Assembly (NCBI RefSeq): GCF_032401055.1
Contig: NZ_CP135529.1
Span: 4,090,501 to 4,154,500, forward strand
DNA from: Tardiphaga sp. 709
GTDB taxonomy: Bacteria; Pseudomonadota; Alphaproteobacteria; Rhizobiales; Xanthobacteraceae
Direction of reading: 5' to 3'
Length of the DNA stretch: 64,000 bases
Part shown: piece after piece, positions 99 to 28,521 of the stretch
Position numbering within the stretch: position 1 is the stretch's first letter
How the letters are laid out: every line of letters starts with the position of its first letter
Notes under the pieces: generated by a model
What the model was told of the DNA's origin: nothing
Databases searched by the model: none
Seen by the model: only the letters and a program-made list of their open reading frames with translations
Position numbers and translations under genes: made by a program

Positions 99-112
99 TT
101 GAGCTAGATCAA
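99..112 (+). promoter_or_regulatory. FNR/FixK box before the hydrolase genes
   Basis: TTGAGCTAGATCAA matches the FNR/FixK consensus TTGAN6TCAA with both half-sites complete. It lies 59 bases before the ATG at 171, compatible with a class II position if transcription starts some 40 bases downstream of its centre. It is one of seven such boxes in the first 28.3 kb. Confidence 0.75.
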
Positions 113-170
113 GCCTTTCCGGGAAGTCTCGCCGAACACTTTTACGAAACGCCATTGGGAGGATGCGGTC

Positions 171-1094
171 ATGACCGGGGCAGACGCCACGAAACGTTGT
201 GCTGTCAGTCTGATCATACTGCTCGTCGGCACAGCGATAGCGACCGCACAGCCCTTCACGCGTCGCTCGTCGCAAGTCCAGCATGATGGATTGAAGAAAT
301 ACTACGAGATATCAAACTTCCGGCTGGGCGGTAAGTATGACCTCAACGACCACGCCAAGTGGGAAGACGGCGGCGAGGGTGGAGTCACGCTGGAGTCGCT
401 CGGTGGTGGTAAGCTACGCACGGCCTATGTCGCAGTCGGAAACCCGCGCCGCAATGCCGCCGGTGAGATCACCAATGCGGTGGTCATAAATTCCTACTAT
501 TCCGGCGACTCTACCGACATGTATGAGCAATGGGTCAAGGGCGCCGCGCTATCAGGCGGCGTGCCTATCATTGGTCCCGGACGACCGATCGATACCGACC
601 GTTACTATGTCATTATGGTCGATCCGTTGGGCACTTGGGGCGCCAGCAAACCTTCGGACGGCCTTGGTATCAAATTTCCGCAGTACAGCTACTTTGACAT
701 GGTGCAGGCCAACTATCGGATGTTGCGCGATCATTTGAAGGTCGTGCGCGTGGCGCTGGTCGCCGGCGTCTCGATGGGGGGCACGCAGACTTATGTTTGG
801 GGCGTGCTGCATCCCGAATATATCGGTGCGCTGATGCCGATTGGCGGTACGACGCAGTCTGACGCCGGGGATCCAGTCGGCAACTGGACGTTCCAGCTCA
901 TGACGGCCGCTATCCAGTCCGACCCGGTCTGGCAATCGACCAAGGGCGATTACTATAAGCTACCGAAGGAGAAACACCCGCTGCCGGGCATGGCCTTCGG
1001 CTGGTCGGTTCTTGGTCTGACCGGCTATGATTTCGGCTACAGGACAAACCAGAGTTTCGCGTCGGGAAGTTTTCTACTGGGACCCGCCGAATGA
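171..1094 (+). CDS. Exported alpha/beta-hydrolase, MetX-like N-terminal part (frameshifted)
   Basis: This 307-residue frame has an N-terminal signal peptide (hydrophobic 11-26, ending near ATAQP) and a MetX/homoserine-acetyltransferase-like alpha/beta-hydrolase fold. The nucleophile elbow GVSMGG (Ser201) and the oxyanion-strand region (TNAVVINSYYSG) are present, but the frame ends before the catalytic Asp and His. Those occur at the start of the next, overlapping ORF in another frame (ITNDLW and AHYGVF). One surplus G in the GGG at 1064-1066 would explain the break, so this is probably the 5' part of a gene running to 2670. A good ribosome site (GGGAGG, 157-162) and an FNR/FixK box precede it. 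The substrate is unknown; the signal peptide argues for periplasmic action rather than methionine synthesis. Confidence 0.75.
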   Translation: MTGADATKRCAVSLIILLVGTAIATAQPFTRRSSQVQHDGLKKYYEISNFRLGGKYDLNDHAKWEDGGEGGVTLESLGGGKLRTAYVAVGNPRRNAAGEITNAVVINSYYSGDSTDMYEQWVKGAALSGGVPIIGPGRPIDTDRYYVIMVDPLGTWGASKPSDGLGIKFPQYSYFDMVQANYRMLRDHLKVVRVALVAGVSMGGTQTYVWGVLHPEYIGALMPIGGTTQSDAGDPVGNWTFQLMTAAIQSDPVWQSTKGDYYKLPKEKHPLPGMAFGWSVLGLTGYDFGYRTNQSFASGSFLLGPAE

Positions 1095-2670
1095 GAAAGC
1101 CGGTCTCAACGTGAATAACCGCTCTAAACTATATGATGCGGTGGATCTGGTCTGGCGCAACCGTATCGGCGAAACCTACAATATCAATGAGAACCTCGGG
1201 CGCATTCAGGCTCGCACGTTGGTGATGCATATCACCAACGACCTCTGGCTGAATTTCAAGCTTGCCCAGCGCGCCGTCGATCGCGTTCCGGGCGCAGACC
1301 TTATCTCCGAGGAGAGCCCGGTTGCTCACTACGGTGTGTTTCCGATCATCAACAATCGGAAGAACGATCCGAAATTCGTCGCGTTCATGGACGACGTGGC
1401 GAGCCTCGACCGGGCGCAGCAGTTCGTCGACAAGAATTATCGTATCCCTCGGGTTGCCGAAAATATCGACAAAACAAAATCGTTCTGGAAGGACTACGTG
1501 ATCTATCCCTATCCGGTCAAATATGCGACCGCGAAGGACAAGCGTGGGACGTCCTGGCAGATCGGCTACATGGACGAATATGCCGGTACGGACAGGGATC
1601 CGAAGGTCCTTGTCATCATTCACGGCAAGGGCGCTTTCGGCGGGCACTACGGCAATATCATGCAATATGCCTTGCGCAGTGGCGTGCGCGTGATCGTGCC
1701 CGATTTGCCTCATTATGGCATGTCCGGGCCCGGCAATCTCGACAAGAGCCCGGCGCGCAGCATGCAGGATATGCGCGAGGTGATCTATGATCTCGTCGTC
1801 AACCAGCTCAACGTCAAGAAGGCGCATTACCTTGGCCACTCTCTCGGCGGCCAGTTCGTGATGGGCTACGCCCTGACCTGGCCGGATGCGGTGCAAAGTC
1901 TTGCGCTCGAGGCGCCTTCCGGTCTTGAGGAATATCCGCGCGACATCACGGTCGCCAAGGACAAGAAGGCGCGTCTGTTCGACGAATCCTTCGGCCGTGA
2001 CTTCGCCAAGTGGAAGCAGGCATGGGATCAGACCGGGATCCTGGCCGCAGAGATCGCCCGGCCAGAGGAGGGCATCCGCGATTTCTTCTACTTCAAGAAG
2101 CGTGACCCGGAGACCGGGGCCGTATCAGCTGCGAAGAGCGGTTACTTCTTCAGCGACAGTGAATATGCCCGCTTGCATACCGAGCAGCGCGTCGGCTTGA
2201 CCAAGGGGAACCCGAAGGAGCTCGAACAATGGTGCAACGTCTTCATCTTCGATATCTACACGATAGGTGCGGAGCTGCAGCAGGATGACCCGAAGAACCT
2301 TTACGAACGGCTGACCGAGGTCAAGGCGCCGATCTTCCTTGCGTTCGGCGACAAGGAGCCGTTTATCCCGACACCTGCCTTTAACGGCTTGACCGACCTC
2401 GGCCGCGATGTGATCACGCCGTTCATGTCGCGGATGACGAACGCCGGCAACCGGCCGATGCTCAAGATCTATCCGGAGACCGGACATTTCATTCACACGG
2501 ACAATCCGGTTGAATATTCCGCCGACGTGGTGGACTTCGTGACGAAGGGAAAGGTCGATACCAGTTCGCCGCTCGGGACCGATCGCATGATCAGGGGCGC
2601 CGTTGCGTCGGTGCTCCCGGTGGCGCCGACACCGCCCGGTGCAGCCCCGACCGCTGGTCTGAACAAATAG
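1027..2670 (+). CDS. Alpha/beta-hydrolase: end of first domain plus complete second domain
   Basis: The 547-residue frame opens without a convincing ribosome site or signal peptide. Residues 20-125 resemble the C-terminal part of a MetX-like hydrolase, supplying the Asp (TNDLW, about 72) and His (AHYGVF, about 101) that the upstream ORF lacks. From about residue 160 a second full alpha/beta-hydrolase follows: HGKGAFGG oxyanion region, GHSLGG nucleophile (Ser272), FGDKEPF acid region and ETGHFIH histidine. The simplest reading is one exported protein of roughly 830 residues with two hydrolase domains, broken by a one-base shift near 1065. Alternatively the second half is translated alone from an internal start and only its second domain is active. 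Substrate not recognisable. Confidence 0.7.
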   Translation: MISATGQTRVSRREVFYWDPPNEKAGLNVNNRSKLYDAVDLVWRNRIGETYNINENLGRIQARTLVMHITNDLWLNFKLAQRAVDRVPGADLISEESPVAHYGVFPIINNRKNDPKFVAFMDDVASLDRAQQFVDKNYRIPRVAENIDKTKSFWKDYVIYPYPVKYATAKDKRGTSWQIGYMDEYAGTDRDPKVLVIIHGKGAFGGHYGNIMQYALRSGVRVIVPDLPHYGMSGPGNLDKSPARSMQDMREVIYDLVVNQLNVKKAHYLGHSLGGQFVMGYALTWPDAVQSLALEAPSGLEEYPRDITVAKDKKARLFDESFGRDFAKWKQAWDQTGILAAEIARPEEGIRDFFYFKKRDPETGAVSAAKSGYFFSDSEYARLHTEQRVGLTKGNPKELEQWCNVFIFDIYTIGAELQQDDPKNLYERLTEVKAPIFLAFGDKEPFIPTPAFNGLTDLGRDVITPFMSRMTNAGNRPMLKIYPETGHFIHTDNPVEYSADVVDFVTKGKVDTSSPLGTDRMIRGAVASVLPVAPTPPGAAPTAGLNK

Positions 2671-2679
2671 GTCCGCCCT

Positions 2680-3540
2680 ATGCCAAGGGTGCAGGCGGGC
2701 GAGGTTTCACTGGGCTGGCGCGAATGGGGAGCAGGCGACGTAACCGTGGTCTTTATCCACGGCAATCTCGCCAGCAAGGACTGGATTGAGCTCGCCGCGC
2801 CTTTGTTTCCGTGCGGACTGCGCGTGATTGGAATCGATTGGCGCGGTTGCGGCGACAGCGACCGGCCGGAGCCTGCGAGCGATTACAGGAACTACTCCAT
2901 GCAGCAGCACGCCGAGGATATGCTCGCCGCGCTCGATACGCTGCGCATCAAGTTCTGCCATCTTGCAACCCATTCGACTGGTGGCATCATTGCCGCGCGG
3001 ATGTTGTTGATGCAGCCGGAGCGCTTCGGGCGGATATTTGCTCTCGATCCGGTGACACCGATCGGCATGGCCTTCAACAGTGATCAGCTCAGCCTTTTCC
3101 GGGCAATGATGGCGAGCAAGCAACTCACACGCACGGTGATGGCCACCGCAGCGTCCTCGCTATTCCTGCCGGAGAGCATGGCACCCAACGCGATCCCACG
3201 GTTCCGCGAGGGGACCGGTGAAATCCAGGCGCTGTTCGACCGGATCGTCGAGCAGACATTTGGTGTGTCTGAAGGCATCTGGATCGGGACGCCTGTCAAT
3301 CTCAACCGGGAGAAGGAAAGCGGAGAGCTGGAGCGCCGGATGCCCGAAATCCGGCACGCGCATCTGGTGCTCTGGGGCGAACGCGACGGGTGGATTCCAT
3401 TGCCCGATCTACGGACCATGGCAGCGACAATGCCGGATTGCCGGCTCGTCGTCGTGCCAGGGATCGGACATTCGATGAATCTGGAGGTGCCGGCGCTATA
3501 TGCCGGTTACTTCGGCGCCTGGTTCGGTGCTCTCCAATAG
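2680..3540 (+). CDS. Alpha/beta-hydrolase
   Basis: A 286-residue single-domain alpha/beta-hydrolase with no signal peptide, so probably cytoplasmic. It shows the oxyanion motif HGNLAS (27-32), DWRGCGDSDRP after strand 4, the nucleophile elbow THSTGG (Ser99), the acid in WGERDGW and the histidine in GIGHSMN. The Thr after the nucleophile replaces the commoner Met, Leu or Gln. It starts nine bases after the preceding hydrolase ends and is followed by a channel gene in the same direction, so the three are probably cotranscribed from the box at 99. The family covers esterases, haloperoxidases and C-C hydrolases; the sequence does not decide which. Confidence 0.8.
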   Translation: MPRVQAGEVSLGWREWGAGDVTVVFIHGNLASKDWIELAAPLFPCGLRVIGIDWRGCGDSDRPEPASDYRNYSMQQHAEDMLAALDTLRIKFCHLATHSTGGIIAARMLLMQPERFGRIFALDPVTPIGMAFNSDQLSLFRAMMASKQLTRTVMATAASSLFLPESMAPNAIPRFREGTGEIQALFDRIVEQTFGVSEGIWIGTPVNLNREKESGELERRMPEIRHAHLVLWGERDGWIPLPDLRTMAATMPDCRLVVVPGIGHSMNLEVPALYAGYFGAWFGALQ

Positions 3541-3569
3541 CGGCGGGCTTATCGTAGATTGGTAGAGTT

Positions 3570-4028
3570 ATGGCGATTCAGTTTTTTGTCGGCTCGATCG
3601 TAACCGTGATCACGATCATGATCCACGCGCTGGTGACTGTTGGCGCCGTGGGCATCGCGCGCAAAGCCGGGTTGCGGCACACCGTGCGACCGAAATTTCA
3701 CCTGATGGCCGTGATGGTCGAGGTAGCAGCTGTGCTAATGATTGCGCACACGCTGGAAATGCTTGCCTGGGCGTTGGCCTACGCAATAGTGGGGGCAACC
3801 CCGGAAGGGAGCGATCTACTTTATTTCGCTTTTGTGAATTACACGACTCTTGGCTACGGCGACATTACACCGGTGCAGGCCTGGCGGCTGATCGGGCCGA
3901 TGACCGCCATGAACGGCATACTGATGTTTGGCTGGTCAGCGGCAGTCCTGTTCGAAGTGCTGCAAAAGACACTGGATCATCTCGCCAAAATCGGTGCCCG
4001 CGGTTTCAGTTTTGAAGATCGAGGCTAG
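3570..4028 (+). CDS. Small two-pore-type potassium channel
   Basis: The 152-residue membrane protein has hydrophobic segments at about 5-30, 45-75 and 105-130. Between the last two lies a pore loop with the selectivity filter YTTLGYGDI (91-99), the hallmark of K+-selective channels (Ion_trans_2 family); Leu replaces the usual Val in TVGYGD. No cytoplasmic RCK/TrkA_N or cyclic-nucleotide domain follows, so gating is unclear. It likely sets membrane potential or K+ efflux in the inner membrane. It is the last gene of the rightward hydrolase cluster, and its 3' end overlaps the convergent regulator gene by 23 bases. Confidence 0.8.
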   Translation: MAIQFFVGSIVTVITIMIHALVTVGAVGIARKAGLRHTVRPKFHLMAVMVEVAAVLMIAHTLEMLAWALAYAIVGATPEGSDLLYFAFVNYTTLGYGDITPVQAWRLIGPMTAMNGILMFGWSAAVLFEVLQKTLDHLAKIGARGFSFEDRG

Positions 4029-4689
4029 CGAGCCGACTTCGGTCCATGAGCACGATCTGCCGTTGGGTGTTGCCGACAAAGCCAAGGGTGCCGAGTTCAT
4101 GCAGCCGAGACAATACGCGTGAAACAGTTTCCAGCGTCAGGCCGAGATAATCGGCGATGTCGCGGCGCGACATCGGCAGTGCCATAATGCCAGCGGCCGT
4201 CAACCGCTTGTCCATTTCAAGCAGAAACGCGGCGACCCGTTCCAGCGAAGTCTTGCGGCCGAGCAGAAGCATGTGGTCTTCCGCATGTTGCAGGTTACTT
4301 GTGGTCATGTTGAGCAGATTGCGGGCGACCATGGTGTCGCTCTCGGCGACAATCTCCAAACTTTGTCGCTTGATGAGGCGAACGGTGGTGTCGACAATCG
4401 CTTCCGCTGTGAACCGGTGCTCACCACCGTTTTCCAACCCGAAAATATCGCCGGCGAGGTGAAATGCGCCGATCTGCCGACGCCCATCGGACAGAAGCTT
4501 GTAGCTTCGCACCGCGCCAGATTTTACTTGGTAGACGTATTCTGCAGGCTCCTTCTCGCCGTAGATTTCAGAGCGCTTCTTATACGTGAATTCGTTCAGA
4601 CTGACGATGGGATTAGATTCGCTATCCATGCCGAGTTCACGGAGAGAGTTTGGGCGAGGTGTTGAGCTCATTGTCGTGCGAGCAAACAT
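4006..4689 (-). CDS. Crp/Fnr-family regulator, FixK-like, without cysteines
   Basis: The protein has an N-terminal cyclic-nucleotide-binding-like beta-roll (about 30-120), a long dimer helix (TSNLQHAEDHMLLLGRK) and a C-terminal winged helix whose recognition helix contains ETVSRVLSRL, the E-SR signature of FNR/FixK proteins that read TTGAN6TCAA. I start it at 4689, where GGGGAG precedes the ATG; a longer frame reaches 4749. From this start it has no cysteine, so it cannot hold an FNR-type iron-sulfur cluster and also lacks the redox-sensitive Cys known in Bradyrhizobium FixK2. Its activity is therefore probably set by its synthesis (a FixLJ-like cascade). It is the best local candidate for the activator of the boxes in this island. 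Confidence 0.88.
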   Translation of the reverse strand: MFARTTMSSTPRPNSLRELGMDSESNPIVSLNEFTYKKRSEIYGEKEPAEYVYQVKSGAVRSYKLLSDGRRQIGAFHLAGDIFGLENGGEHRFTAEAIVDTTVRLIKRQSLEIVAESDTMVARNLLNMTTSNLQHAEDHMLLLGRKTSLERVAAFLLEMDKRLTAAGIMALPMSRRDIADYLGLTLETVSRVLSRLHELGTLGFVGNTQRQIVLMDRSRLASLDLQN

Positions 4690-5045
4690 GGTCCACTCCC
4701 CACTTTTACTAAATGACTTTCCCTCAATTCTGCACTGCGACAAAAGCACCCTGCTTTTGCCGCTCGCGCTGAAGTAGATTTAAGAATAAGCTGGAACCTG
4801 CGACCATTGTCTCAAGGTTCATTGCACCAAAGAGCAACATAACGGTGCGTAATATAGTGCCGAGGATGGAAGATGGCGCCTCATCACGACTGCATATTTC
4901 GATCTCGGAATGCGTTCGGTCCATCTTCGATATCGTATGAACAGTGACGCATCGATGAGAAGGTCTGGCGCGCTGCGTAAGACGTTCGGCCGGAACCAAT
5001 GCCTTAGCAGCGCTTTTCCGCCATATTGATCGGAGTTCGAGTAAA

Positions 5046-5657
5046 ATGCCGGGCCTCGTTCACGTCGTAGACGACGATGTTTCATATCGAACCGCGATCG
5101 AGCGGCGGCTGAAAGTAGCCGGGTATGAAGTAGCCACATACGCATCAGCGACAGAGTTGCTGGATCAATTGCCGTTCACCGTGAGGCCAGGGTGCATTCT
5201 GCTCGATATACAGATGCCCGGGTTGAGCGGTCCGGAGTTACAAAGCCAATTGATTGAGCGGGGGTTCAGCATGCCGATCGTGTTCGTCACCGCGCACGTC
5301 GATGCGGCAACGATTGTGCAGGCTATCAAGGCTGGTGCGGAAGATTTTTTGACGAAGCCAGTGACGTCGCAGCAGTTGATCGATGCGATCGAGCGGGCAC
5401 TGCAGCGTTTGGAGGTGGAAAGCGGGCAACGTAGTGAGCTCGCGTCATTTCGCAGCCTCTTGTTATCCCTCACGCCGCGGGAATGGCAGGTGTTCGACTT
5501 GATGGTACGGGGTAAAATCAACAAGCAGATCGCCTATGAGCTAGGAACAACCGAGCGCACGATAAAGGCGCACCGCCATCAGGTCATGGAGAAGATGCAA
5601 GTCGTTTCGTTTGCTGAGCTTGTTTCCGTCGCCGAAAGACTTGGTATGCGGGGATGA
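5046..5657 (+). CDS. FixJ/NarL-type response regulator
   Basis: The 203-residue protein has a receiver domain (1-120) with acidic pocket DDD (9-11), phosphoacceptor Asp54 in LLDIQMPG, Thr82 and Lys104 (TKP). A LuxR-type helix-turn-helix follows (about 138-200: LTPREWQVFDLMVRGKINKQIA...TERTIKAHR). This is the FixJ arrangement, and FixJ proteins classically activate fixK genes. It sits 356 bases from the divergent FixK-like gene, so it may control it. No kinase is adjacent; the nearest candidate is the FixL-like transmitter at 15,247, about 10 kb away, and the pairing is inference only. Confidence 0.88.
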   Translation: MPGLVHVVDDDVSYRTAIERRLKVAGYEVATYASATELLDQLPFTVRPGCILLDIQMPGLSGPELQSQLIERGFSMPIVFVTAHVDAATIVQAIKAGAEDFLTKPVTSQQLIDAIERALQRLEVESGQRSELASFRSLLLSLTPREWQVFDLMVRGKINKQIAYELGTTERTIKAHRHQVMEKMQVVSFAELVSVAERLGMRG

Positions 5658-7283: not shown

Positions 7284-7297
7284 TTGATTCAGATCAA
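7284..7297. promoter_or_regulatory. Shared FNR/FixK box between divergent operons
   Basis: TTGATTCAGATCAA, a full match to the FNR/FixK consensus. It lies 58 bases upstream of the leftward esterase start at 7225 and about 51-60 bases upstream of the rightward DUF1275 starts at 7349 or 7358. One site could therefore drive both directions. Confidence 0.8.
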
Positions 7298-7348: not shown

Positions 7349-8017
7349 ATGTGGCGCATGTCGGTGATCCGCCGCGAAGAGAGCCTGCTGGTCGCGCTGC
7401 TGCTGGGCTTCGCCGGTGGTTATCTCGATGCCTATACCTGGATCACCCACGGCGTTCTGGCGAATGCGCAAACCGCCAATCTGGTGTTCTTGTGGGTGAA
7501 CGCGATGGTCGGGAAGTGGAAGGAGGCGTTCCACTTCGTACCATCGCTTTTTGCATTCATGGTCGGTGTTGTGCTCGCCGCGTGGCTGCGCCGTGTTGCC
7601 GGTAATCGAGCTGGACCAATCAGCATCCTCGTCGAGATCGCAGTTCTTGTCCTTGTCGGTGTGCTGCACAATCGAGTGCCGGACGTTGCCGGCACGCTGG
7701 GCGTCTCTATGGTGGCCGCAATGCAGACGTCGGTTTTCACCAAGGTCGAAGGTGCAAACTACAGTTCGGTGATGATAACGGGAAATCTTCGCCAGGCGAT
7801 TGACGGCGCATTTACCTTGATGGCCGGGGATTCGCAGGTCGGTCTGTTACGGAAGTCCTGCATCTTCATCGCGGTTTGCGCCACATTCGGTACGGGTGCG
7901 GCTGTGGGTGCCTTCCTTACAGAGAGGACGCCAGCGCTCACATTGACCGTTCCTGTCGCCGCGTTGTTGCTTGTTCTTTTGCGTTGCGGCCGAATCCGCA
8001 CGGCTGAAGCAGGATAG
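7349..8017 (+). CDS. DUF1275 (YoaK-type) membrane protein
   Basis: About 222 residues with six hydrophobic segments. The first, LLLGFAGGYLDAYTWITHGVLANAQTAN, carries the GxxDA...G..N pattern typical of DUF1275, and MQTSVF...TGNLRQ in the middle is the second family signature. Function in the family is unknown; an inner-membrane transport role is usually assumed. The frame is open far upstream, but the esterase gene occupies that stretch on the other strand, so I start at the ATG at 7349 (or 7358). The SulP gene follows 23 bases later, and both are likely driven by the box at 7284. Confidence 0.8.
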   Translation: MWRMSVIRREESLLVALLLGFAGGYLDAYTWITHGVLANAQTANLVFLWVNAMVGKWKEAFHFVPSLFAFMVGVVLAAWLRRVAGNRAGPISILVEIAVLVLVGVLHNRVPDVAGTLGVSMVAAMQTSVFTKVEGANYSSVMITGNLRQAIDGAFTLMAGDSQVGLLRKSCIFIAVCATFGTGAAVGAFLTERTPALTLTVPVAALLLVLLRCGRIRTAEAG

Positions 8018-8040
8018 AGAGTTGACCGAGGGAGGCGGGC

Positions 8041-9705
8041 ATGAATTTCCGATCGATCTTCCCGCCGGCGCAGTGGCTTGTCGAATACCGGGCTGCCTGG
8101 CTTCGCCACGACACGATCGCGGGCGTTACGCTTGCCGCCTATGCGATCCCGGTATCGCTCGCTTATGCGGCGCTTGCCGGTCTGCCGCCACAGGTCGGCA
8201 TCTACGGCTACATGCTGGGCGGCGTTGGTTATGCGTTGCTGGGCTCTTCGCGGCAACTCGCCGTCGGCCCGACTTCGGCGATCTCTTTGATGGTCGCTGC
8301 CACGGTCGGAGCGCTCGCCGCAGGCGACGCGTTTCGCTATATGCAGATTGCGAGTATCGCGGCCCTGGCCGTTGCGTGCCTCTGCGTGATTGCCTGGGTT
8401 TTTCGGCTAAGCATGCTGGTGCGCCTGATCAGCGACAGCATTCTGGTGGGTTTCAAGGCTGGCGCCGGCCTGACCATCATCATGACGCAATTGCCAAGCC
8501 TGTTTGGCGTTGCTGGCGGCGGGCGAAATTTCTTTGATCGCGTTGCTACACTTGTTTGGCAACTCGGCGGCATACAGTGGATCGTGCTTGTGATCGGGCT
8601 TGTTGCGCTCCTGCTGCTTCAAGGCGAACGTCTATGGCCCGGCAGACCGGTGGGACTTGCGGTCGTGATCCTCTCGGTCATTGTCGCAACCGCGCTCGGC
8701 TTGCCGGCGCTCGGCATTCCCGTCACCGGCGAAATTCCCAAGGGCTTGCCGAGCATTGCTGTGCCGACCTTTGGGTTACTGGAGTTCGACGAACTGTTTC
8801 CTCTCGCTGCCGGCATTATGTTGCTTGCCTATGTCGAAGGCGTCGCAGCAGCACGCAGTTTCGCGGCGAAACACGGTTACGTCATTGATGTGCGACAGGA
8901 GTTTTTGGGGCTGGGCGCGGCAAATATGGCAGTCGCGTTTGGTCACGGCTATCCCGTTGCGGGAGGACTATCCCAATCCGCCGTCAATGATCAGGCCGGC
9001 GCGAAGACGCCACTCGCTCTCGTTATCTGTTCGGGCGCGTTGGCCATCTGCCTGCTTTTTCTCACGGATCTACTGACCAATTTACCCAAGGCGGTGCTCG
9101 CTGCGATCGTATGCACGGCAGTTTATAGATTGATTGATATAGCTGCCCTCATGCGAATGTGGCGCATCAGCCGGATCGATTTTTATGCGGCAGCGATTGC
9201 TCTCGTATCTGTGCTGATGTTAGGAATCCTTCAGGGTATCCTTCTGGCTGCGCTTGCCTCCATTTTCCTGTTACTGGCGCGCGCCTCACAGCCGAACGTA
9301 GCAATTCTCGGGCGCCTGCCAGGAACAGGTCGATATGCCGATAGCGCGCGGCACCCTGACGTGGAGTCGATTGCAGGTGTGCTCGCGTTCCGCCCGGAAG
9401 CCTCGTTACTCTATATCAATGCGGAAACGGTGATGGAGAACGTGCTGGCAAAGGTTCGGGCGTTGCCGGACACCAAGATTGTTGTCTGCGGCCTCTCATC
9501 GTCACCCTTCATGGATCTCGCGGGCGTAAAGATGCTTCACGACCTCCATGGCCAGCTTGTCTCTCACGGCATCGCCTTCCAGATCGTCGGCGCTCGTGGC
9601 CAGGTCCGCGATGTCTTGCAAGCCGATGGATTCGCGGAAAAGACCGACAGCGCCAACTGGACCCGAAGGATGGATAATGTGCTTGGCGATCTGAGGCGAG
9701 AGTGA
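8041..9705 (+). CDS. SulP-family anion permease with STAS domain
   Basis: The 554-residue protein has the SulP membrane core (about 20-420) with the early signature AYAIPVSLAYAALAGLPPQVGIYG and the segment GGLSQSAVNDQAGAKTPLA. A C-terminal STAS domain follows (about 440-545; AETVMENVLAKV, VVCGLSSSPFMDLAGVKMLHDL). SulP proteins move sulfate, bicarbonate or other anions across the inner membrane; the substrate is not predictable here. The usual STAS phospho-site position reads SSSPFMDLAG. A strong ribosome site (GGGAGG) precedes the ATG. Expression with the DUF1275 gene under an FNR/FixK box suggests use at low oxygen. Confidence 0.88.
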   Translation: MNFRSIFPPAQWLVEYRAAWLRHDTIAGVTLAAYAIPVSLAYAALAGLPPQVGIYGYMLGGVGYALLGSSRQLAVGPTSAISLMVAATVGALAAGDAFRYMQIASIAALAVACLCVIAWVFRLSMLVRLISDSILVGFKAGAGLTIIMTQLPSLFGVAGGGRNFFDRVATLVWQLGGIQWIVLVIGLVALLLLQGERLWPGRPVGLAVVILSVIVATALGLPALGIPVTGEIPKGLPSIAVPTFGLLEFDELFPLAAGIMLLAYVEGVAAARSFAAKHGYVIDVRQEFLGLGAANMAVAFGHGYPVAGGLSQSAVNDQAGAKTPLALVICSGALAICLLFLTDLLTNLPKAVLAAIVCTAVYRLIDIAALMRMWRISRIDFYAAAIALVSVLMLGILQGILLAALASIFLLLARASQPNVAILGRLPGTGRYADSARHPDVESIAGVLAFRPEASLLYINAETVMENVLAKVRALPDTKIVVCGLSSSPFMDLAGVKMLHDLHGQLVSHGIAFQIVGARGQVRDVLQADGFAEKTDSANWTRRMDNVLGDLRRE

Positions 9706-9752: not shown

Positions 9753-9766
9753 TTGACTTGGATCAA
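9753..9766 (+). promoter_or_regulatory. FNR/FixK box before the small secreted protein gene
   Basis: TTGACTTGGATCAA has both TTGA and TCAA half-sites. It lies about 170 bases before the start at 9936, further than the other boxes, so a long leader or a more distal start point is implied. Confidence 0.65.
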
Positions 9767-9935
9767 CAGACGTTTGTCGGAATGGCGCGAGAACGAGCTG
9801 AATTCCTAGACTTCTCGGAAGTATGACGTCTCCACAAGTGACCGGATCAAACCGCCCATTATCGTCATGGCAATCGAATAGTTCACGATGATCTTGGCTC
9901 AATAGTTCAGTCTGACAACAGAGGAAATGAAAGTC

Positions 9936-10379
9936 ATGCGAAAATTCAGCGTCTATGCAATTGTGGCTACAGTGGTCACTGTGCTTGCTGCGATCACCGG
10001 ATTCAGTACGCCCTCGCGTGCGGACATGGGTCAGGTTGCCGTGATATTCACCAAGGGCGGCTTCATCGTCGGAATTGGTGGCGGTGAGGGCGTGCTGAGG
10101 TATCGCGGAAAACAATATCCATTCACGGTCTCAGGTATGAGCGTCGGTTTTACGATTGGCGCGTCTACCACCAAGCTTGTCGGCCGTGCTATCAATCTGA
10201 AGGGGCCGGCTTCGATCGAAGGCTCTTATGCAGTGGTCGGAGCGGGTGGCGCGGTGGCGGCCGGAGCCGGAAGTGTGCAATTGCAGAATGGCAATGGTGT
10301 GATCCTGCAGCTTAGCGGCCCCAAAGTTGGCGCCGAAGTATCCGCCGCTGTCGGCGGGGTTACGATACGGCTGAAGTAA
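9936..10379 (+). CDS. Small secreted glycine-rich protein, SYLF/EipA-like
   Basis: About 147 residues: a signal peptide (hydrophobic 7-22, cleavage near PSRADM), then a repetitive beta-rich domain with many glycines (GGFIVGIGGGEGVLRYRGKQYPF, GSYAVVGAGGAVAAGAGSVQL). A paralog lies at 19,793; both share the (V/L)xYRGxxYPFxVSG(M/L)S(V/L)GFTxGAS core. The pattern recalls the SYLF and DUF1134 (EipA) envelope folds, but I am not certain of membership. I start at 9936 rather than 9927 because GAGG is too close to the first ATG. A GC hairpin with a T-rich tail follows the stop. Confidence 0.65.
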   Translation: MRKFSVYAIVATVVTVLAAITGFSTPSRADMGQVAVIFTKGGFIVGIGGGEGVLRYRGKQYPFTVSGMSVGFTIGASTTKLVGRAINLKGPASIEGSYAVVGAGGAVAAGAGSVQLQNGNGVILQLSGPKVGAEVSAAVGGVTIRLK

Positions 10380-10394: not shown

Positions 10395-10422
10395 GCCGCG
10401 CTGCGCGCGGCTTCGTTTGTTT
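10395..10422. terminator. Hairpin between convergent genes
   Basis: GCCGCG, loop CTGCG, CGCGGC, followed by TTCGTTTGTTT. It lies 16 bases after the stop at 10379 and at the 3' end of the leftward PPK2 gene, so it fits a rho-independent terminator for the rightward transcript. Confidence 0.6.
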
Positions 10423-11222: not shown

Positions 11223-11258
11223 GTCATAACTCCAAGATCAGCTTGGCGCGAACTACAC

Positions 11259-11714
11259 TCAATCTCCCCAGGAGATTGTAATGGCAATGTCGCCGGGTAT
11301 ACCGCCGGGATAGTCGATGGTCTGGTAACCGATGCGGTAGCCGCGCGGTTGCAAATAGTCGCTCCAGAGCTGGAAGATTTCAGCAGGAATTCCCGTTAAA
11401 GTTTTCTCCCACCCCTTTTCTTGCTGATTGATGGCGCGACCCTTGTCGGTACATAGGGAGTTTGGAAAGCGGTAGACCTGGACTTCCGTCAAGCCGTTTC
11501 GCACCGCCCGCTGGATGACGGTTGAGGCAAGTTGGACTTTTTCGGCTTCGGTTTTGCCGGACGGTTGACTGAGCCGTTCGATCAGCGCGCGCTTTTCGGC
11601 CTCAGCAGCCGCGGTGATGCGGGCATGTTGGTCAGCCGCCTCGGCCTCTTTAAGCGCCGCCTCTTTGCGGATCTGCGTGGCGGTGGGGATGAGATCGTCG
11701 ATGCTGCGAGACAT
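11259..11714 (-). CDS. Uncharacterised 151-residue protein with coiled-coil N-terminus
   Basis: I do not recognise a family. Residues 10-75 are charged and alanine-rich and look helical (KEAALKEAEAADQHARITAAAEAEKRALIERL). The C-terminal part has more structured sequence (VQVYRFPNSLCTDKG, GYRIGYQTIDYPGG). There is no signal peptide or membrane segment, so it is probably cytoplasmic. CAGGAG lies seven bases before the ATG. It is the first gene of a leftward pair with PPK2, 70 bases from an FNR/FixK box. Confidence 0.7.
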   Translation of the reverse strand: MSRSIDDLIPTATQIRKEAALKEAEAADQHARITAAAEAEKRALIERLSQPSGKTEAEKVQLASTVIQRAVRNGLTEVQVYRFPNSLCTDKGRAINQQEKGWEKTLTGIPAEIFQLWSDYLQPRGYRIGYQTIDYPGGIPGDIAITISWGD

Positions 11715-18889: not shown

Positions 18890-19809
18890 CCGTTTGGACG
18901 TCAATCCATCGCGCTGCATCGACAACTGCGGTGGCTGTCGTGGCGCTGGCTCTCATGACTTTGGTGTCCGGGGCGCAGCAATCCTTTCCAACACCGGAGG
19001 CTGCTGCGGCGGCGCTCGCCGTCGCGGTCAAGAGCGGCGCGAGCGATATTCTAAAGGTCCTCGGCAAGGCGGCCGATGACATCGTCTCGTCGGGTGACGA
19101 GGTGGCCGACGCTGACACGCGTCTGCGCTTCACGTCCATGTATGACGCCAAGCATGCGATCAAGACGGAGGGCAACAAGAGAGCGACCTTGATGCTCGGC
19201 ACGGACGACTTTCCGTTCCCGATCCCGCTCATCAACACCAAGACGGGTTGGGAGTTCGATGCCGAAGAGGGCCGCATTGAGGTCCTGTATCGTCGGATCG
19301 GCCGTAACGAGCTCGATGCGATCCAGACCAGTCTCGCCTATGTCGACGCCCAGAACGAATATGCCGACAAGGACCGCGGCGAGGGCGCCGGCGTTTATGC
19401 GCAGCGGATTGTATCGACGCCGGGCAAGAAAGACGGGCTGTTCTGGCGTGATGATGGCGATCCGAGCCCGTTGGGTGCATTGGTCGCAGAAGCCTCAACC
19501 GAGGGCTACCAGGTCGATGAAAAGCCGCAGCCATATCACGGCTACTATTTCCGCATCCTGAAAGGACAAGGGTCCAACGCCCCCGGCGGTGCGCTCATCT
19601 ATTTGGTGAAAGGCAAGATGATTGGCGGCCATGGATTAATCGCTTGGCCTGCCGAATACGGGAATTCCGGCGTCAAGACGTTCATGGTCAATCATGCCGG
19701 GACCGTTTACGAAAAGGATCTCGGACCGCAGACAGACCGGATCGTGAGGCGCATGTCCCTGTTCGATCCCGACCAGACGTGGAAGAAAGTCAATGCAGAA
19801 AAGCCCTGA
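18886..19809 (+). CDS. DUF2950-family secreted protein
   Basis: 307 residues from the ATG at 18,886, which overlaps the preceding TGA as ATGA and has GGAGGTG six bases upstream. A signal peptide ends near SGAQQS. The mature part has FPTPEAAAAALAVAVKSGA, FPFPIPLINTKTGWEFDAEEG, LAYVDAQNEYADKDRGEG and FRILKGQGSNAPGGA, the order typical of DUF2950. Function is unknown; DUF3300 and DUF2950 genes are often neighbours, so the products probably act together outside the cytoplasm. The 3' end overlaps the next gene by 17 bases. Confidence 0.83.
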   Translation: MTVWTSIHRAASTTAVAVVALALMTLVSGAQQSFPTPEAAAAALAVAVKSGASDILKVLGKAADDIVSSGDEVADADTRLRFTSMYDAKHAIKTEGNKRATLMLGTDDFPFPIPLINTKTGWEFDAEEGRIEVLYRRIGRNELDAIQTSLAYVDAQNEYADKDRGEGAGVYAQRIVSTPGKKDGLFWRDDGDPSPLGALVAEASTEGYQVDEKPQPYHGYYFRILKGQGSNAPGGALIYLVKGKMIGGHGLIAWPAEYGNSGVKTFMVNHAGTVYEKDLGPQTDRIVRRMSLFDPDQTWKKVNAEKP

Positions 19810-22597: not shown

Positions 22598-24199
22598 CTA
22601 TCCACCGGCGCCACTCGTCGCCAGAAGTCCGACGATCTGTGCCGCGATCACCTTCACGAGTGTCATGGACGGGAAGATCATCGCGTAGCCGATGTCCGGA
22701 CGCTCGGTCGGTGCCATCTTCGTCGAATAGACCAGAATGGCGGGATTTCCGGTTGCGCCGGATGCCACGCCGACCAGGTCGTCGTAGGGAATCTTCATCA
22801 CGTAGTGACCAACGAGCAGGACGATGAAGACCGTCGTCAGAAGCACGGCGACGCCGATAAACAGCATCGTGAACCCTGATTCGGACACCGTACGGACAAA
22901 AGGCTGTCCGGCATTCACGCCAACGGTGGCAAGAAATATGGCCAGGCCAAAGTTTCGAAGAACAATGTTAGCCGGCAACGGCATGGTCCAAAGCATGGGT
23001 CCGGTGCGACGGAGCTTGCCGAGAATGAGCGCAACGATCAGAGGTCCCCCGCCGATGCCGAGCGTCACAACACCCACGCCTGGGATCGGAATGGGGATTA
23101 AACCGAGAAGGACGCCCATGACCATGCCGAGACCGAGCGAAACATAACTGAACTCTGCAGCCGCCTTGACGCTATCGCCGAAGTGCTTTCGAATCTCTTC
23201 CTTTTTTTCGGGCGGCGTCAGGACGCCGATACGGTCGCCGAATTCCAGCATGAGGTCGGGAGAGGGGACGAGGTCGGCATCGTAGCGCCGGACGTGCAGG
23301 ATCTGCGCTGGGACGCCCGGCGGCATCGGCAGCTTCGAAAGCGGTACGCCGACAATGTTGCCCTTGCCTACGAACACGCGGATGTAATCCAGGTCGGCGC
23401 GGTCGCTCGCGAGCCGGCCCGGTTCGAGTCGGCCGATACGTTCAGCCGCCAATGCGATTTCCTCTTGCCGGTCAGCCACGACGAGTATGGCGTCTCCCGC
23501 ATTCAGGACGGTACCGTCTGTCGGCACGACGTTACGGCCGTTCTGTCGGATCATGGTAATCTGCAGCTCGGCGAGCGATTCAGCAGCAAGGTCCTTGAGC
23601 TTCGCACCGGCAAAGTTCTCTCCGATCGTGATCTCGCCCATGTGGAAATTCTTGGTCTTGGCCGGGAACTTGGGCTTCACGAGCTGGGTCATGAAGTAAA
23701 TGCAGAGAATCGGGCCGATGACCCCGAACGGATATGCGATCGAATAACCGATTGAGGGATCCTTGTTCTTCATGACGTCGAGCGCTGCCTGAAGCGTCGC
23801 GGTGCTCGTCATCGATCCCGCATAGAGGCCAAGCGTGTGTCCGATCTTGATGCCGAAGATGTGCCCCAGCACTAGCGCAACTGCGAGCCCTGCCAGGCAG
23901 GCGACCAGGGCCAGCAGATTGTACTTCTGCCCCACGCCAAACATGCCTTCGAAGAACTGGCGGCCGTAAAGGATGCCGATGCCGTACAGAAACATGATGA
24001 GGCCGGTGAGGCCGATGGGGCCGATGATCTGGGCCTTGGGTGCGAACGCGCCGATCGCAAGACCGACGAACAGGACCGCGCCGACCCCGAGCGAAAAGCC
24101 GAAGATGCTGATCTGCCCGACGAGGTAGCCCAGTCCAATCGCGAGAAATGCCGTCAAGATCGGCTGGCTTCCGATGATATCGCGCGCAAGATCCAACAT
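22598..24199 (-). CDS. AspT/YidE-type exchanger with two TrkA_C domains
   Basis: 533 residues: an N-terminal membrane half (1-170; GLGYLVGQISIFGFSLGVGAVLF, GLYAGSMTSTATLQAAL), two RCK/TrkA_C-like domains (about 195-355; GENFAGAKLKDLAAESLAELQI and GKGNIVGVPLSKLPMP), and a C-terminal membrane half (about 370-533) repeating the first (GIGGGPLIVALILG, GVASGATGNPAILVYS). This is the aspartate:alanine exchanger family. AspT swaps aspartate for alanine and can generate proton motive force; other members are uncharacterised. Lying between pflA and focA, it probably moves an organic acid or amino acid linked to fermentation, which is inference. Confidence 0.85.
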   Translation of the reverse strand: MLDLARDIIGSQPILTAFLAIGLGYLVGQISIFGFSLGVGAVLFVGLAIGAFAPKAQIIGPIGLTGLIMFLYGIGILYGRQFFEGMFGVGQKYNLLALVACLAGLAVALVLGHIFGIKIGHTLGLYAGSMTSTATLQAALDVMKNKDPSIGYSIAYPFGVIGPILCIYFMTQLVKPKFPAKTKNFHMGEITIGENFAGAKLKDLAAESLAELQITMIRQNGRNVVPTDGTVLNAGDAILVVADRQEEIALAAERIGRLEPGRLASDRADLDYIRVFVGKGNIVGVPLSKLPMPPGVPAQILHVRRYDADLVPSPDLMLEFGDRIGVLTPPEKKEEIRKHFGDSVKAAAEFSYVSLGLGMVMGVLLGLIPIPIPGVGVVTLGIGGGPLIVALILGKLRRTGPMLWTMPLPANIVLRNFGLAIFLATVGVNAGQPFVRTVSESGFTMLFIGVAVLLTTVFIVLLVGHYVMKIPYDDLVGVASGATGNPAILVYSTKMAPTERPDIGYAMIFPSMTLVKVIAAQIVGLLATSGAGG

Positions 24200-24237
24200 A
24201 CTTCAGAACTCCTCGAATCCGTCGAATAGTCGGTTGA

Positions 24238-25065
24238 TCAGCGTGCCTGACACCCCGCGGCCCGGAACTGTCCGAGCACCCGGTTCACCAGCTCCCGGCT
24301 GGGTGGCTGCGTATCAGCAAGCTTGTATTCAAGACCCATCGCCTTCCACTTGAACTCGCCCATCTGGTGGAAAGGCTGCACTTCCACCCACTCGACGTTC
24401 TTCATCGGTGCGACAAATTTTGCGATTCCGTCGACATTAGGCGGATCGTCAGTCTCGCCCGGGACAAGCGTGAACCGAACCCAGACCGGCTTCGACATCG
24501 AAGCGAGGCGCTCGGCGAAACGAAGCGTTGGCGTGATGTCGCGGCCAGTGACGCGGCGATAGATCTCGGGATCTGAACTCTTGATGTCGAGAAGAACGAG
24601 GTCGATCTCCGACAGATAGGCGTCGTCCACGCGATCACCCAGAAATCCTGAGGTCTGAATCGCGGTGTGCAGACCCATCTTCCTGGCGCCCGCGAATATT
24701 CGCTGGGTGAATGCACGCTGCACCATTGCCTCGCCCCCCGAAATGGTTAGCCCGCCACCGAGGGCCCGAAGAGAGGGCGCGAAATCGGCGAGACGGCGGA
24801 GCACCTGATCGGCCGAGACGTAGGTGCCGTCCTTGAGGTGCCAGGTATCCGGATTATGACAATAGGTGCACCGCAGAAGGCACCCCGAGACGAACAGCAC
24901 GACGCGCAAGCCGGGACCGTCATAACGGGAGGACGTCTCATAGGAATGGCAATATCCGAACGCGCCTTCCTGGTCCTTAATCTGGTCGTCGTCGGGCGCG
25001 TCGGGCGAAAGTCCGACCCGGAGGTCATGACGACTTCCGGGCTCCAGTGTCTGCACCGTCGACAT
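24238..25065 (-). CDS. pflA: Pyruvate formate-lyase activating enzyme
   Basis: 275 residues of the radical-SAM superfamily. The cluster motif CLLRCTYCHNPDTW (CxxxCxxC, around residue 60) binds the 4Fe-4S centre, and ALGGGLTISGGEAMVQ holds the SAM-binding GGE. It lacks the extra 8Fe ferredoxin insert of glycyl-radical activases for other enzymes, in agreement with the PFL type. It makes the glycyl radical on PflB in the cytoplasm and needs anoxic conditions. It starts 13 bases after pflB, with GAGAGGTG before its ATG. Confidence 0.95.
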   Translation of the reverse strand: MSTVQTLEPGSRHDLRVGLSPDAPDDDQIKDQEGAFGYCHSYETSSRYDGPGLRVVLFVSGCLLRCTYCHNPDTWHLKDGTYVSADQVLRRLADFAPSLRALGGGLTISGGEAMVQRAFTQRIFAGARKMGLHTAIQTSGFLGDRVDDAYLSEIDLVLLDIKSSDPEIYRRVTGRDITPTLRFAERLASMSKPVWVRFTLVPGETDDPPNVDGIAKFVAPMKNVEWVEVQPFHQMGEFKWKAMGLEYKLADTQPPSRELVNRVLGQFRAAGCQAR

Positions 25066-25077
25066 GGTGCACCTCTC

Positions 25078-27348
25078 TCAGATCTGGCCGTGGAAGGTAC
25101 GGCTGATCACATCACGCTGCTGCTCCGGCGTCAGCCGGACGAAATTCACGGCGTAACCCGAAACCCGGATCGTGAGTTGCGGATACTTGTCCGGGTTCTT
25201 CATCGCGTCCTCAAGCGTCTCCCTGTCGATCACGTTCAGGTTCATGTGGAAACCGCCGCGATCGAAATAGACATCGAAGGCCTTGACCGCTTCATCCACG
25301 AGTTGATCATCCGACAGATGAGCCTTCTGGGGAGCGACCGAAACCGTGTAGCTGATGCCGTCCTGCGCATCCTTGTAGGGAAGTTTTGCGACCGAGAGGC
25401 AGGAGGCGAGCCAGCCATGGCTATCGCGTCCGTGCATTGGATTGGCTCCAGGCCCGAACGGCTCTCCCTTTCGCCGCCCGTCAGGGGTGTTTCCCGTGGC
25501 CTTGCCGTAGACGACGTTGGAGGTGATCGTGAGCACGCTCTGGGTATGCGTTGCGTTCCGGTAGGTCGGATGCTTGCGGATCTTCTCCATAAAGCTGGTC
25601 ACGAGGGCTGATGCGATTTGATCGACCCGGTCGTCGTTATTGCCAAACTGTGGCGTCGACTTGTTGCCCTCGTTCTGGAAATCGACGATAAGTCCTGTTG
25701 CGTCCCGCGTAACGCGGATCTTTCCGTATTTGATAGCGCTGAGGCTATCGGCAACCACCGAAAGACCTGCGATCCCGAACGCCATCGTGCGCAGGATATC
25801 GCGGTCATGGAGCGCCATCTCCAGACGCTCATAGAAATACTTGTCGTGCATGTAGTGGATGCAATTCATCGCATGGACATAGATCTTGGCGAGCCACTCC
25901 ATCGTGGTATCGAACTTGGCCATGACGTCGTCGAAATCGAGGAATTCACCCGCAACCGGCTGAGAGAGAGGGGCAACCTGCTCGCCAGATACTTCGTCCC
26001 GGCCGCCGTTGATGGCGTAAAGCAGCGCCTTCGCCAGGTTGACGCGCGCGCCGAAGAACTGCATCTGCTTTCCAAGGCGCATCGCCGAAACACAACAGGC
26101 AATCCCGTAGTCATCTCCCCAGAAGGGCCGCATCAGATCGTCATTTTCGTACTGAAGCGAGGATGTGTCCTTGCTCACCTTCACGCAATATCGCTTGAAG
26201 GGCTTCGGCATTTTGGTCGACCAAAGCACTGTGATGTTTGGTTCGGGCGCCGGGCCGAGATTGTAAAGCGTATGCAGCATCCGATAGCTGCTTCGGGTCA
26301 CCAGTGCCCGGCCATCCAGATCCATTCCGCCAACACATTCGGTCGCCCAATAGGGGTCGCCGCTGAACAGTGCATCGTAATCAGGAGTGCGGAGGAAGCG
26401 CACGATGCGGAGTTTTTGGACAAGCTGGTCCCAAAGCTCTTGCGCGTGGGCTTCGTCCAGAATGCCGGCTTTCAGGTCCCGTTCGATATAAATATCAAGG
26501 AAGCTCGATATACGGCCAATCGACATCGCGGCGCCGTTGGCTTCCTTGATGGCACCCAGATAGGCAAAATAAGTCCACTGAAATGCTTCCTGGGCGGTTG
26601 CTGCGGGCTTGGATATATCGTGACCATAGAGCTTCGCCATGGATGCAAGATCGGTCAACGCGCGCATCTGCTCCGACAGTTCTTCACGCATCCGGATAAT
26701 TTCATCGGTGGGCCACATATCGTTGATCTGCGCGCGCTCGGCCCGCTTCGCCTCAAGGAGGCGGTCGGTTCCGTACAGGGCCACTCGGCGATAGTCACCG
26801 ATAATGCGGCCACGCCCGTAAGAGTCGGGCAGGCCGGTGACGATCCCCGATCGGCGGCAGTTCATGATCTCGGGTGTGTAGACGTCGAACACGCCGTCAT
26901 TGTGCGATTTGCGATATTTCGTGAATGCTTCGTGCACGCGCGCGTCAGGTCTAAAGCCCGCAGCTTCCAAGCCGTTCTCGACCATCCTGAGGCCGCCGAA
27001 CGGAAAGATCGCGCGCTTGAAGGGTTGATCTGTCTGCAGGCCGACGACAACTTCGTTGTCCTTGTCGATATAACCCGCACTATGTGCAAGCATGGTTGAA
27101 GGGGAGGCGGCATCGACCGCAAGCACGCCCTTCTTTCTCTCATCCGCGAAGTAGGGCTGCAACTTCGCCCAGACGGCCTTTGTGCGCTGTGAGGGTCCTG
27201 CGAGGAAGTCCTCGTTGCCGGTATAAGGCGTGACGTTCCGGGCAATGAAATCGCGGACGTTGATCGAGGTTTGCCAGTCTCCTGACCGAAACCCCTTCCA
27301 GCAATCCCCGGTGTCGGCTTCCTTTCTGAGAGCGGCACTTGCTTTCAT
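25078..27348 (-). CDS. pflB: Formate C-acetyltransferase (pyruvate formate-lyase)
   Basis: 756 residues from the ATG at 27,348 (GGAGAC upstream; the frame extends to 27,414 without a ribosome site). The two active-site cysteines fall at residues 418 and 419 in GIACCVS, the same numbers as in Escherichia coli PflB. The glycyl-radical motif RVSGYAVNF places the radical Gly at 731. It converts pyruvate and CoA to acetyl-CoA and formate. A perfect FNR/FixK box lies about 100 bases upstream. PFL is oxygen-labile and unusual among the mostly respiratory members of this family, which fits an acquired anaerobic module. Confidence 0.97.
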
Positions 27349-27450
27349 GATACGTCTCCGTCCGATGCATTCTCGATTGGTGGTGGGCCCGATGGAGCCA
27401 ATCCATACGAGCAACGGTGACGTATGTTGGTCTAGTCAAGGTGATGATGT

Positions 27451-27464
27451 TTGATCTGGATCAA
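27451..27464 (-). promoter_or_regulatory. FNR/FixK box before the pfl operon
   Basis: TTGATCTGGATCAA, a perfect consensus match, centred about 110 bases before the pflB start codon. It probably controls pflB-pflA-exchanger-focA and perhaps the DUF4344 gene. Confidence 0.82.
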
Positions 27465-27690
27465 GCTGATGCAGACTTCGCTGCATCGGCACACGTCGTG
27501 CCAGTCAACGCTGATCCCGATCCGATCTATCGTTTTTCTGACAACGCCCTTTGTTTGCCGCGCGCGGAGGCGGGACCTGTGATGCGGGCGGCGTTATTCT
27601 CGGGACGCGCGTTCGACCAACCCGTCATTCTCGCTTCGCAGCGAACATTGTGCGCTGCGTGTGCAGCCTAACGGGCGTCGCAGGTAAAGA

Positions 27691-28113
27691 TTACCATCCG
27701 TAATAACTGCGCCTGTAACGTGGATAATAGCCACCGTACCCGTAGGGCGCGCAGTAGTCAGAAGCATAGCCACCATATGCGTAGCTGCTGGCATAGGGGT
27801 ATCCACCGCCGTAATATGGATATGCGTTGCCGTAATAGGCTGACCGCGCGATTGCGCCGCCGACGGCTGCGCCGGCAGCAGCGGCACCCCAACCCCGGTA
27901 TCCTCGATAACCCCAGCCGCGATAGCCGCCCCAACCTCGGTACCCCCCGCCACCGTACCAGCGGCCATAGCGCACCTGTAGCACGGAGGTGTCCAGCCCG
28001 GTCTTCATCGCAGTAACATTGGTTGGCAGTGGTGCGGCTTCGGCAGTTGAGGCAGCGATACCGATGATGGTAGTGGCAGATGCGGCAACGATCGTTGCCT
28101 TGATGAAGTTCAT
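27691..28113 (-). CDS. Exported Gly/Tyr-rich protein
   Basis: 140 residues from the ATG at 28,113 (GAGGAAAA upstream; the open frame reaches 28,203). A signal peptide ends near AEAAPL. The mature part opens with a short non-repetitive stretch (TNVTAMKTGLDTSVLQVRYG), then is dominated by GGYRGWG repeats, a small hydrophobic glycine-zipper (GAAAAGAAVGGAIA) and YYGGGYPYASSYAYGGY, ending in YYPRYRRSYYGW. Such proteins are common in Rhizobiales as envelope or surface proteins; no function is known. An FNR/FixK box stands about 117 bases before the start. Confidence 0.72.
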   Translation of the reverse strand: MNFIKATIVAASATTIIGIAASTAEAAPLPTNVTAMKTGLDTSVLQVRYGRWYGGGGYRGWGGYRGWGYRGYRGWGAAAAGAAVGGAIARSAYYGNAYPYYGGGYPYASSYAYGGYASDYCAPYGYGGYYPRYRRSYYGW

Positions 28114-28521
28114 GACGTTTTCCTCATGGTTGAGACGGAACGAATCGAGCGGAGCGATGCTGCATCTTTCGTTGCAAGGCAGCTCAAGGGCATAGCGATG
28201 CAATGGTTCCTGCGCTCAAGAGCAGGACCTTGACCTAGATCAACGTAGCCACTTCTGACCGGTCACTATTGGGCTGAGGAGGCGCGAGCGGGTAGACTTC
28301 AACTGGATCGTTGTAGTTGCTATCTCGCCAGCGCAGATCTGTACGGATCTCTCGGTCGCGAGCCAATTGGCGGTTGGCTGGCGTGTACTGCCGTTCGAAT
28401 GTAACGGTCGTTACAACGACTGTTTGCGCTGCGTGCCGACCATTGCGCGTCCGTCTAGCCCGACGGACTTGTCGGATGGCATAGACCATTCGCAGCTGTG
28501 TGAACTGAGAAAGGGTTCAAG
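28114..28521. other. 408-base gap holding an FNR/FixK box
   Basis: Apart from the FNR/FixK box at 28,230 and the leader of the leftward Gly/Tyr-rich gene, I see nothing firm. An 84-codon leftward frame (28,235-28,489) lacks a ribosome site and runs over the box, so I do not call it a gene. Confidence 0.5.
28230..28243 (-). promoter_or_regulatory. FNR/FixK box before the Gly/Tyr-rich protein gene
   Basis: TTGACCTAGATCAA, full half-sites, 117 bases before the leftward start at 28,113. It could also serve the rightward small gene at 28,522, nearly 280 bases away, but that is less likely. Confidence 0.72.

Follow-up and report, generated by a model that had tools for sequence, protein, structure and literature searches.

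A tRNA-Gly(CCC) island of Tardiphaga sp. 709 that probably carries a FixK-type low-oxygen regulon together with its own likely activator

The stretch of DNA analyzed here (64,000 nt of contig NZ_CP135529.1 from Tardiphaga sp. 709, hereafter the window) holds the right-hand part of a genomic island that is inserted at a tRNA-Gly(CCC) gene and studded with boxes of the FNR/FixK type, defined as exact TTGAN6TCAA with both half-sites. The island also encodes a FixK-family regulator, and we consider it very probable that a FixK-type low-oxygen regulon is packaged here with its own likely activator. The features of the window are listed below, where L002 is the stretch of contig C1 to the left of the window.

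99 to 112: box TTGAGCTAGATCAA, between divergent hydrolase genes (L002:14113-15039 on the left, 171 on the right)
171 to 4028, + strand: three alpha/beta hydrolases and an ion channel (Pfam), probable operon
4006 to 4689, - strand: FixK-family regulator, 227 amino acids, no cysteine, read from the ATG shared by its relatives (the longest open reading frame [ORF] starts at 4749)
4805 to 4824, + strand: CATTGN10CATTG direct repeat, candidate regulator site, between the divergent fixK and response regulator genes
5046 to 5657, + strand: FixJ-like response regulator (LuxR type), 179 bits
5699 to 7225, - strand: dienelactone-hydrolase-like and IalB-family genes (Pfam), probable operon
7284 to 7297: box in a divergent promoter, before the dienelactone-hydrolase-like gene and DUF1275
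7364 to 9705, + strand: DUF1275 and SulP transporter
9753 to 9766: box, upstream of the 9927 gene
9927 to 10379, + strand: small exported-looking protein with a weak EipA match (E 0.0027)
10422 to 11714, - strand: 151-amino-acid conserved protein and PPK2, probable operon
11784 to 11797: box in a divergent promoter, with the 151-amino-acid protein gene leftward and DUF3302/HlyD rightward
11872 to 17148, + strand: probable operon of DUF3302-like, HlyD-like, hypothetical, DUF2092, hypothetical and histidine kinase genes
15247 to 17148, + strand: the histidine kinase, last gene of the 11872 operon
17194 to 17207: box, before DUF3300
17264 to 19809, + strand: DUF3300-DUF2950 pair
22598 to 27414, - strand: pyruvate formate-lyase (PFL), its activase and an AspT/YidE-type antiporter, probable operon
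27451 to 27464: box, before pfl
27691 to 28112, - strand: Gly/Tyr-rich protein, probably exported, without a Pfam match (the longest ORF starts at 28203)
28230 to 28243: box, before the Gly/Tyr-rich protein
30568 to 31456, - strand: pair of short ORFs close to the inner side of the right repeat, matching DnaA_N and a replication initiator (HTH_36)
31795 to 31843, + strand: right end of the island, a 49-bp stretch repeating exactly the 3' half of tRNA-Gly (the opposite end is in L002)

A first-pass annotation of this DNA had reported seven boxes, at 99, 7284, 9753, 11784, 17194, 27451 and 28230, all in gaps before genes and none in the right half. All seven were recovered at these positions as the sole exact matches in the 64 kb; each is intergenic, lying between likely genes and facing one, and none is present beyond 28243, the right half being boxless because the island ends at 31843. 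Comparison with shuffled sequence, which the same annotation had proposed as a check, gave a mean of 0.84 and a maximum of 3 boxes in 100 dinucleotide-preserving shuffles versus the 7 observed. When the spacing between TTGA and TCAA was varied from N2 to N12, the window returned seven sites at N6, one each at N4 and N12, and none at any other spacing. Across the whole genome there are 92 N6 sites, roughly the number given by chance, and 12 of them fall within 40 kb, all inside the 45.7-kb island (five left of the window edge and seven within the window); the extent of the regulon thus grows from the seven boxes first reported to 12. The rest of the genome predicts 0.58 boxes for the island (Poisson P of about 2e-12), where again only the N6 spacing is enriched, and 6 of the genome's 15 sites for the stricter TTGATN4ATCAA also lie there. 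The flanks are boxless over 16.1 kb to the left and 32.2 kb to the right.

The island is bounded on the left by the tRNA-Gly(CCC) gene (L002:1069-1142, C1:4076569-4076642), at a distance of 13.9 kb from the window, and the 49-bp direct repeat found at both ends delimits 45.7 kb from this gene to position 31843, 3.6 kb past the last box. tRNA-integrated genomic islands are recognized by duplication of the tRNA 3' end, a shift in GC content and empty sites in sister genomes. All three were observed here: besides the 3'-end repeats, the GC content is 0.58 in the island versus 0.62 in each flank, and in both congeners examined (G311 and G343) the left flank up to L002:1144 joins window position 31795 onward with a 49-bp overlap, leaving the tRNA-Gly intact. 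Neither congener has a DUF2950 or pfl match. The empty sites and the repeat therefore identify the 45.7 kb as an insertion at the tRNA, and the two short ORFs at 30568-31456 are probable remains of a mobile element. The first-pass annotation had treated the left region of the window (99-28243) as one anaerobic regulon, a reading that is partly supported: a FixK-type regulon stood up, with presumed oxygen control and a possible role in anaerobic survival, but its boundary did not, since the unit is the tRNA-Gly island, with its start another 13.9 kb to the left and its end at 31843.

Box conservation was assessed in the neighborhood of DUF2950 relatives, using the top 80 of the 112 loci found (mostly Bradyrhizobium and some Nitrobacter), where the N6 spacing occurs 281 times and every other spacing from N2 to N12 between 2 and 23 times. 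Orthologues were required to share at least 40% identity over at least half of the query, and 300 bp upstream of each were searched. An exact box precedes DUF3300 in 75 of 76 relatives, and the single promoter at 11784 retains it as viewed from both sides (76/76 for the 151-amino-acid protein and PPK2, 72/72 for DUF3302 and HlyD). Smaller samples gave 4/4 ahead of pfl, 5/5 ahead of DUF3141-pta-ackA, 1/1 on each side of box 99, 2/2 before the dienelactone-hydrolase-like gene and 1/1 before DUF1275 at box 7284, and 1/1 at box 28230. Operon-internal genes, used as controls, were nearly boxless (HlyD 0/71, kinase 0/61, DUF2950 0/79, PPK2 1/73), and other half-site spacings were found ahead of an average of 0.5 genes or fewer. 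In alignments of 72-74 distinct promoters, whose rows were preselected for a relaxed box, the half-sites are invariant and the spacer bases variable; the orthologue counts are the unbiased measure of conservation. Judged from these patterns, the boxes look like functional, selected FNR/FixK sites. A class II promoter spacing was considered and dropped, as the 16 gene-facing island promoters, even when six offsets are allowed, match TATAAT at only 2-4 of its 6 positions. The 74 distinct DUF3300 promoters share conserved A, T and T at -10 element places, 21 bases past the box.

About three-quarters of the island, summed over coordinates, lies in probable operons with a leading box. Boxes had been said to cover the whole left region; this holds for most operons, whereas fixK, the response regulator gene and about a quarter of the DNA fall outside (the unboxed parts include 19.8-22.6 kb and 28.3-31.8 kb). 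Left of the window, boxed genes encode a Na/Ca exchanger, a GNAT protein, an AI-2E family transporter, an alpha/beta hydrolase and DUF3141-Pta-AckA with an enoyl-reductase-like gene, and the box at L002:13492 belongs to a CoA-transferase pair with a MaoC-domain gene. PFL (TIGR01255), its activase (TIGR02493) and Pta (NF008852) all exceed their NCBIfam cut-offs and AckA has an Acetate_kinase match, so that the full PFL-activase-Pta-AckA set is present. PFL with Pta-AckA is the textbook pathway that converts pyruvate to formate and acetate and yields ATP, and PPK2 can regain nucleotide phosphate from polyphosphate; these boxed enzymes make sense at low oxygen. The DUF3300 protein (17264-18889) additionally carries an unexpected C-terminal Peptidase_S74 (chaperone of endosialidase) match.

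The gene noted at 4006 in the first-pass annotation does encode a regulator of FixK type, as indicated by its structure match, its lack of cysteines and its place in the tree. Its nearest solved structure is FixK2 (4i2o, E 6.6e-84), and it combines a cNMP-binding-like domain with a Crp helix-turn-helix whose recognition helix we take to be FNR-type from its E..SR motif. There are no Fe-S cysteines, and indeed no cysteines at all from the ATG at 4687-4689, so the cysteines of an Fe-S FnrN are missing; the NCBIfam Caulobacter FixK model gives 218 bits (cut-off 300). Serine occupies the column of the redox-active Cys183 of Bradyrhizobium diazoefficiens FixK2, and in that protein, according to excerpts of PMC9104804, C183S is oxidation-resistant and active. 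The kinase half of 15247-17148 is closest, among NCBIfam models, to FixL, and its N-terminal half has no PAS match and only a weak ABC substrate-binding match (E 0.08).

FixL itself was ruled out as the sensor in this genome because no full-length copy was found: the best match to the rhizobial FixL model reaches 193.5 of 850 bits and covers the kinase part only. Among ten other genomes, six score 845-949 bits (five over the cut-off), G320 and G298 match less well at 595-611 bits, and neither congener has a FixL match at E 1e-70. Seven FixKs from the six 845-949-bit genomes group together and all carry Cys at the Cys183 column, and for six of them the FixL match is no more than 1.5 kb away. 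Ser at this column is shared by the window FixK, its linked relatives and several others, including the FixK-like proteins encoded next to the weaker FixL-like kinases in G320 and G298.

Linkage of fixK to the cluster was examined in a same-family sample of 61 genomes, 10 of which carry DUF2950; some of these may be among the 80 relatives' loci, so the two data sets may overlap. In five of the 10, the window's own genome (G000) included, a FixK gene lies 10-21 kb from DUF2950. The linked FixKs are 77-84% identical to that of the window in G309, G341 and G305 and 62% identical in G323, and those of G000, G309, G341 and G305 group with support of 92/91, below the starred level of the tree. No FixK-like match above 44% identity was found in the congeners that lack the island. 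A FixJ-like regulator and kinase accompany four of the five linked clusters, and the CATTGN10CATTG repeat is kept in exactly these four (window, G309, G341 and G305) and was not found in G323. This co-occurrence suggests, short of proof, a kinase-regulator-FixK cascade in place of FixLJ. In G309 (L153-L154) the two halves of the cluster are swapped relative to the window island, an order expected from either a circular intermediate or a rearrangement.

A general association between the DUF3300-DUF2950 pair and the box was ruled out by boxless pairs outside the cluster. Five same-family genomes have the pair elsewhere, and in the four where DUF3300 could be read (G321, G315, G297 and G339) no box lies upstream; in G297 an N6 site falls within the DUF3300 match itself, and the contig of G333 ends too soon to be read. 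Outside this family, six stretches were read from four alphaproteobacterial genomes of other families: L135 has a box before DUF3300, L139 has an N6 site that separates the DUF3300 match from DUF2950, and the remaining four had none. In L135 (G066, 2491-4541) DUF3300-DUF2950 directly follows a CRP-type gene that is 37% identical to the window FixK, and N6 boxes precede both this gene and DUF3300, an arrangement that is possibly an independent recurrence.

Three rival explanations were considered. That the boxes are a chance or composition effect is extremely improbable. The island is AT-richer and its box expectation slightly higher; however, 400 first-order Markov copies of the island averaged 0.62 boxes with a maximum of 4, compared with the real 12. 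Shuffles, spacing scan and Markov copies thus rule out chance and base composition as the source, spacings other than N6 are unenriched in window, island and relatives alike, and retention of the box at orthologous promoters is a footprint that by itself already refutes this explanation. The island might instead be ancestral to the genus and have been excised from the two congeners, which we regard as unlikely. Precise excision would leave an identical single-copy site, and the cluster core is common in Bradyrhizobium and occurs in some Nitrobacter; nevertheless, a GC content below both flanks, replication-initiator fragments at one end, and the absence of a tRNA from the cluster surroundings read in four other genomes fit a gain better, with two congeners examined.

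A rather doubtful but more substantial possibility is that the boxes are oxygen-controlled and that a host FnrN-like protein reads them, with the island FixK assisting or acting otherwise, so that the island plugs into the existing oxygen circuit of the host. HTH_Crp_2 has 23 matches in the genome, and among 12 proteins compared the next most similar to the window FixK share 39% and 31% identity. The 39% protein (L105, C1:2640941) is FnrN-like with six cysteines and has two boxes directly upstream (C1:2641733 and 2641758), while fixK has no box upstream, even at one mismatch. DNA contacts of FnrN and FixK types are, in the part of PMC4999443 that treats them, not distinguishable. The two ccoN copies, classical targets that served as a positive control, are each preceded by a box at some 0.3 kb from the model match; the core-genome boxes at C1:3196694, 3197527, 2641733, 2641758 and 3455474 lie beside one ccoN, L107 (a CRP-type gene), L105 (FnrN-like) and the other ccoN. 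A purely host-read regulon is at odds with the linkage of FixK to the cluster in G000, G309, G341, G305 and G323, all of which are boxed, and with the lack of a box ahead of DUF3300 in the four same-family genomes where this gene is outside the cluster and could be read.

Several results weigh against a regulon driven by its own island-borne activator. Because FnrN and FixK contacts are alike, the reader of the boxes could be either protein. The response regulator, at 179 bits, falls under the NCBIfam FixJ cut-off of 255, the kinase scores far below the FixL cut-off, and kinase and fixK are 10 kb apart. G323 lacks the regulator and kinase in the stretch read and its FixK belongs to another clade, yet the boxes are present. 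Box 9753 is kept ahead of only 18 of 78 orthologues of the 9927 gene, and no box was found within 300 bp upstream of GNAT (0/6) or Na/Ca exchanger (0/1) orthologues. The 80 relatives are mostly Bradyrhizobium, and counts from related species are not independent trials, so that the spacing and operon-internal controls carry the conservation argument. Finally, no integrase was recognized among the island ORFs scanned, which were part of the total.

Taking together the island and its ends, the boxes and their conservation, the regulator family and the gene families, we infer that the island FixK binds the island boxes, with low oxygen as the signal, and that, FixL being absent, fixK is driven by the kinase and FixJ-like regulator of the island instead. 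When oxygen runs short, the island FixK, with or without the host FnrN-like protein, would bind the boxes and switch on fermentative and energy-reserve genes: PFL and Pta-AckA would yield ATP from pyruvate, and the CoA-transferase, PPK2, ion and anion transporters, and envelope proteins including DUF3300-DUF2950 would also be induced. In its fullest form this would be a self-contained, horizontally moving low-oxygen regulon, in which a three-step cascade runs from the kinase (possibly with a periplasmic-binding-protein-like sensor) through the FixJ-like regulator acting at CATTGN10CATTG to a FixK that has no cysteines, resists oxidation and reads the 12 boxes of its own island. We find this fuller form plausible, though somewhat short of an even chance.

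If true, a host without FixL gains a fermentation and energy-reserve response by one acquisition. Regulons are usually pictured as assembled promoter by promoter; here many operons and their likely activator share one tRNA island, so a strain could gain or lose its low-oxygen response in a single step, and the sister strains with an empty site make this directly testable. The DUF3300-DUF2950 pair, an unexplained plant-interaction candidate in the text available from PMC4653623, obtains a concrete regulatory setting. Given the FixK-type box before the pair in nearly all relatives (75/76), its nodule induction in this family could be a low-oxygen response.

Compared with tRNA-integrated islands in general, the island is alike in its 3'-end duplication, GC shift and empty sister sites, and differs in having no recognizable integrase or transfer genes among the ORFs scanned and in a cargo that consists of a regulon and its own activator. 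A literature search among open-licence papers found no FixK regulon on a tRNA island. The motif, the regulator family and low-oxygen gene groups are already known in B. diazoefficiens and other Alphaproteobacteria, as excerpts of PMC4999443, PMC6515984, PMC9104804, PMC10454721 and PMC5017801 describe. In the portions of PMC9104804, PMC6515984 and PMC10454721 on the FixLJ-FixK2 system, FixK2 is, like the island protein, a CRP/FNR-type regulator without Fe-S cysteines, and the two share the 14-bp box TTGA/C-N6-T/GCAA and mixed groups of microoxia-induced genes. Here, by contrast, fixK lies on a tRNA island with many likely targets, there is no full-length FixL, the island kinase lacks a PAS match, and Ser replaces Cys183. 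The comparative genomics of alphaproteobacterial FnrN and FixK (PMC4999443) reports the same motif, regulator families and known targets such as cco, and its abstract and sections 13, 17 and 24 mention no mobile regulon and do not list the present set of genes. For DUF2950 and DUF3300, the excerpted text of PMC4653623 describes a co-located pair with signal peptides, induced in two symbiosis RNA-seq studies and proposed as plant-interaction candidates, whose gene neighborhood gave no functional clue; the same adjacent pair stands here behind a conserved FixK-type box.

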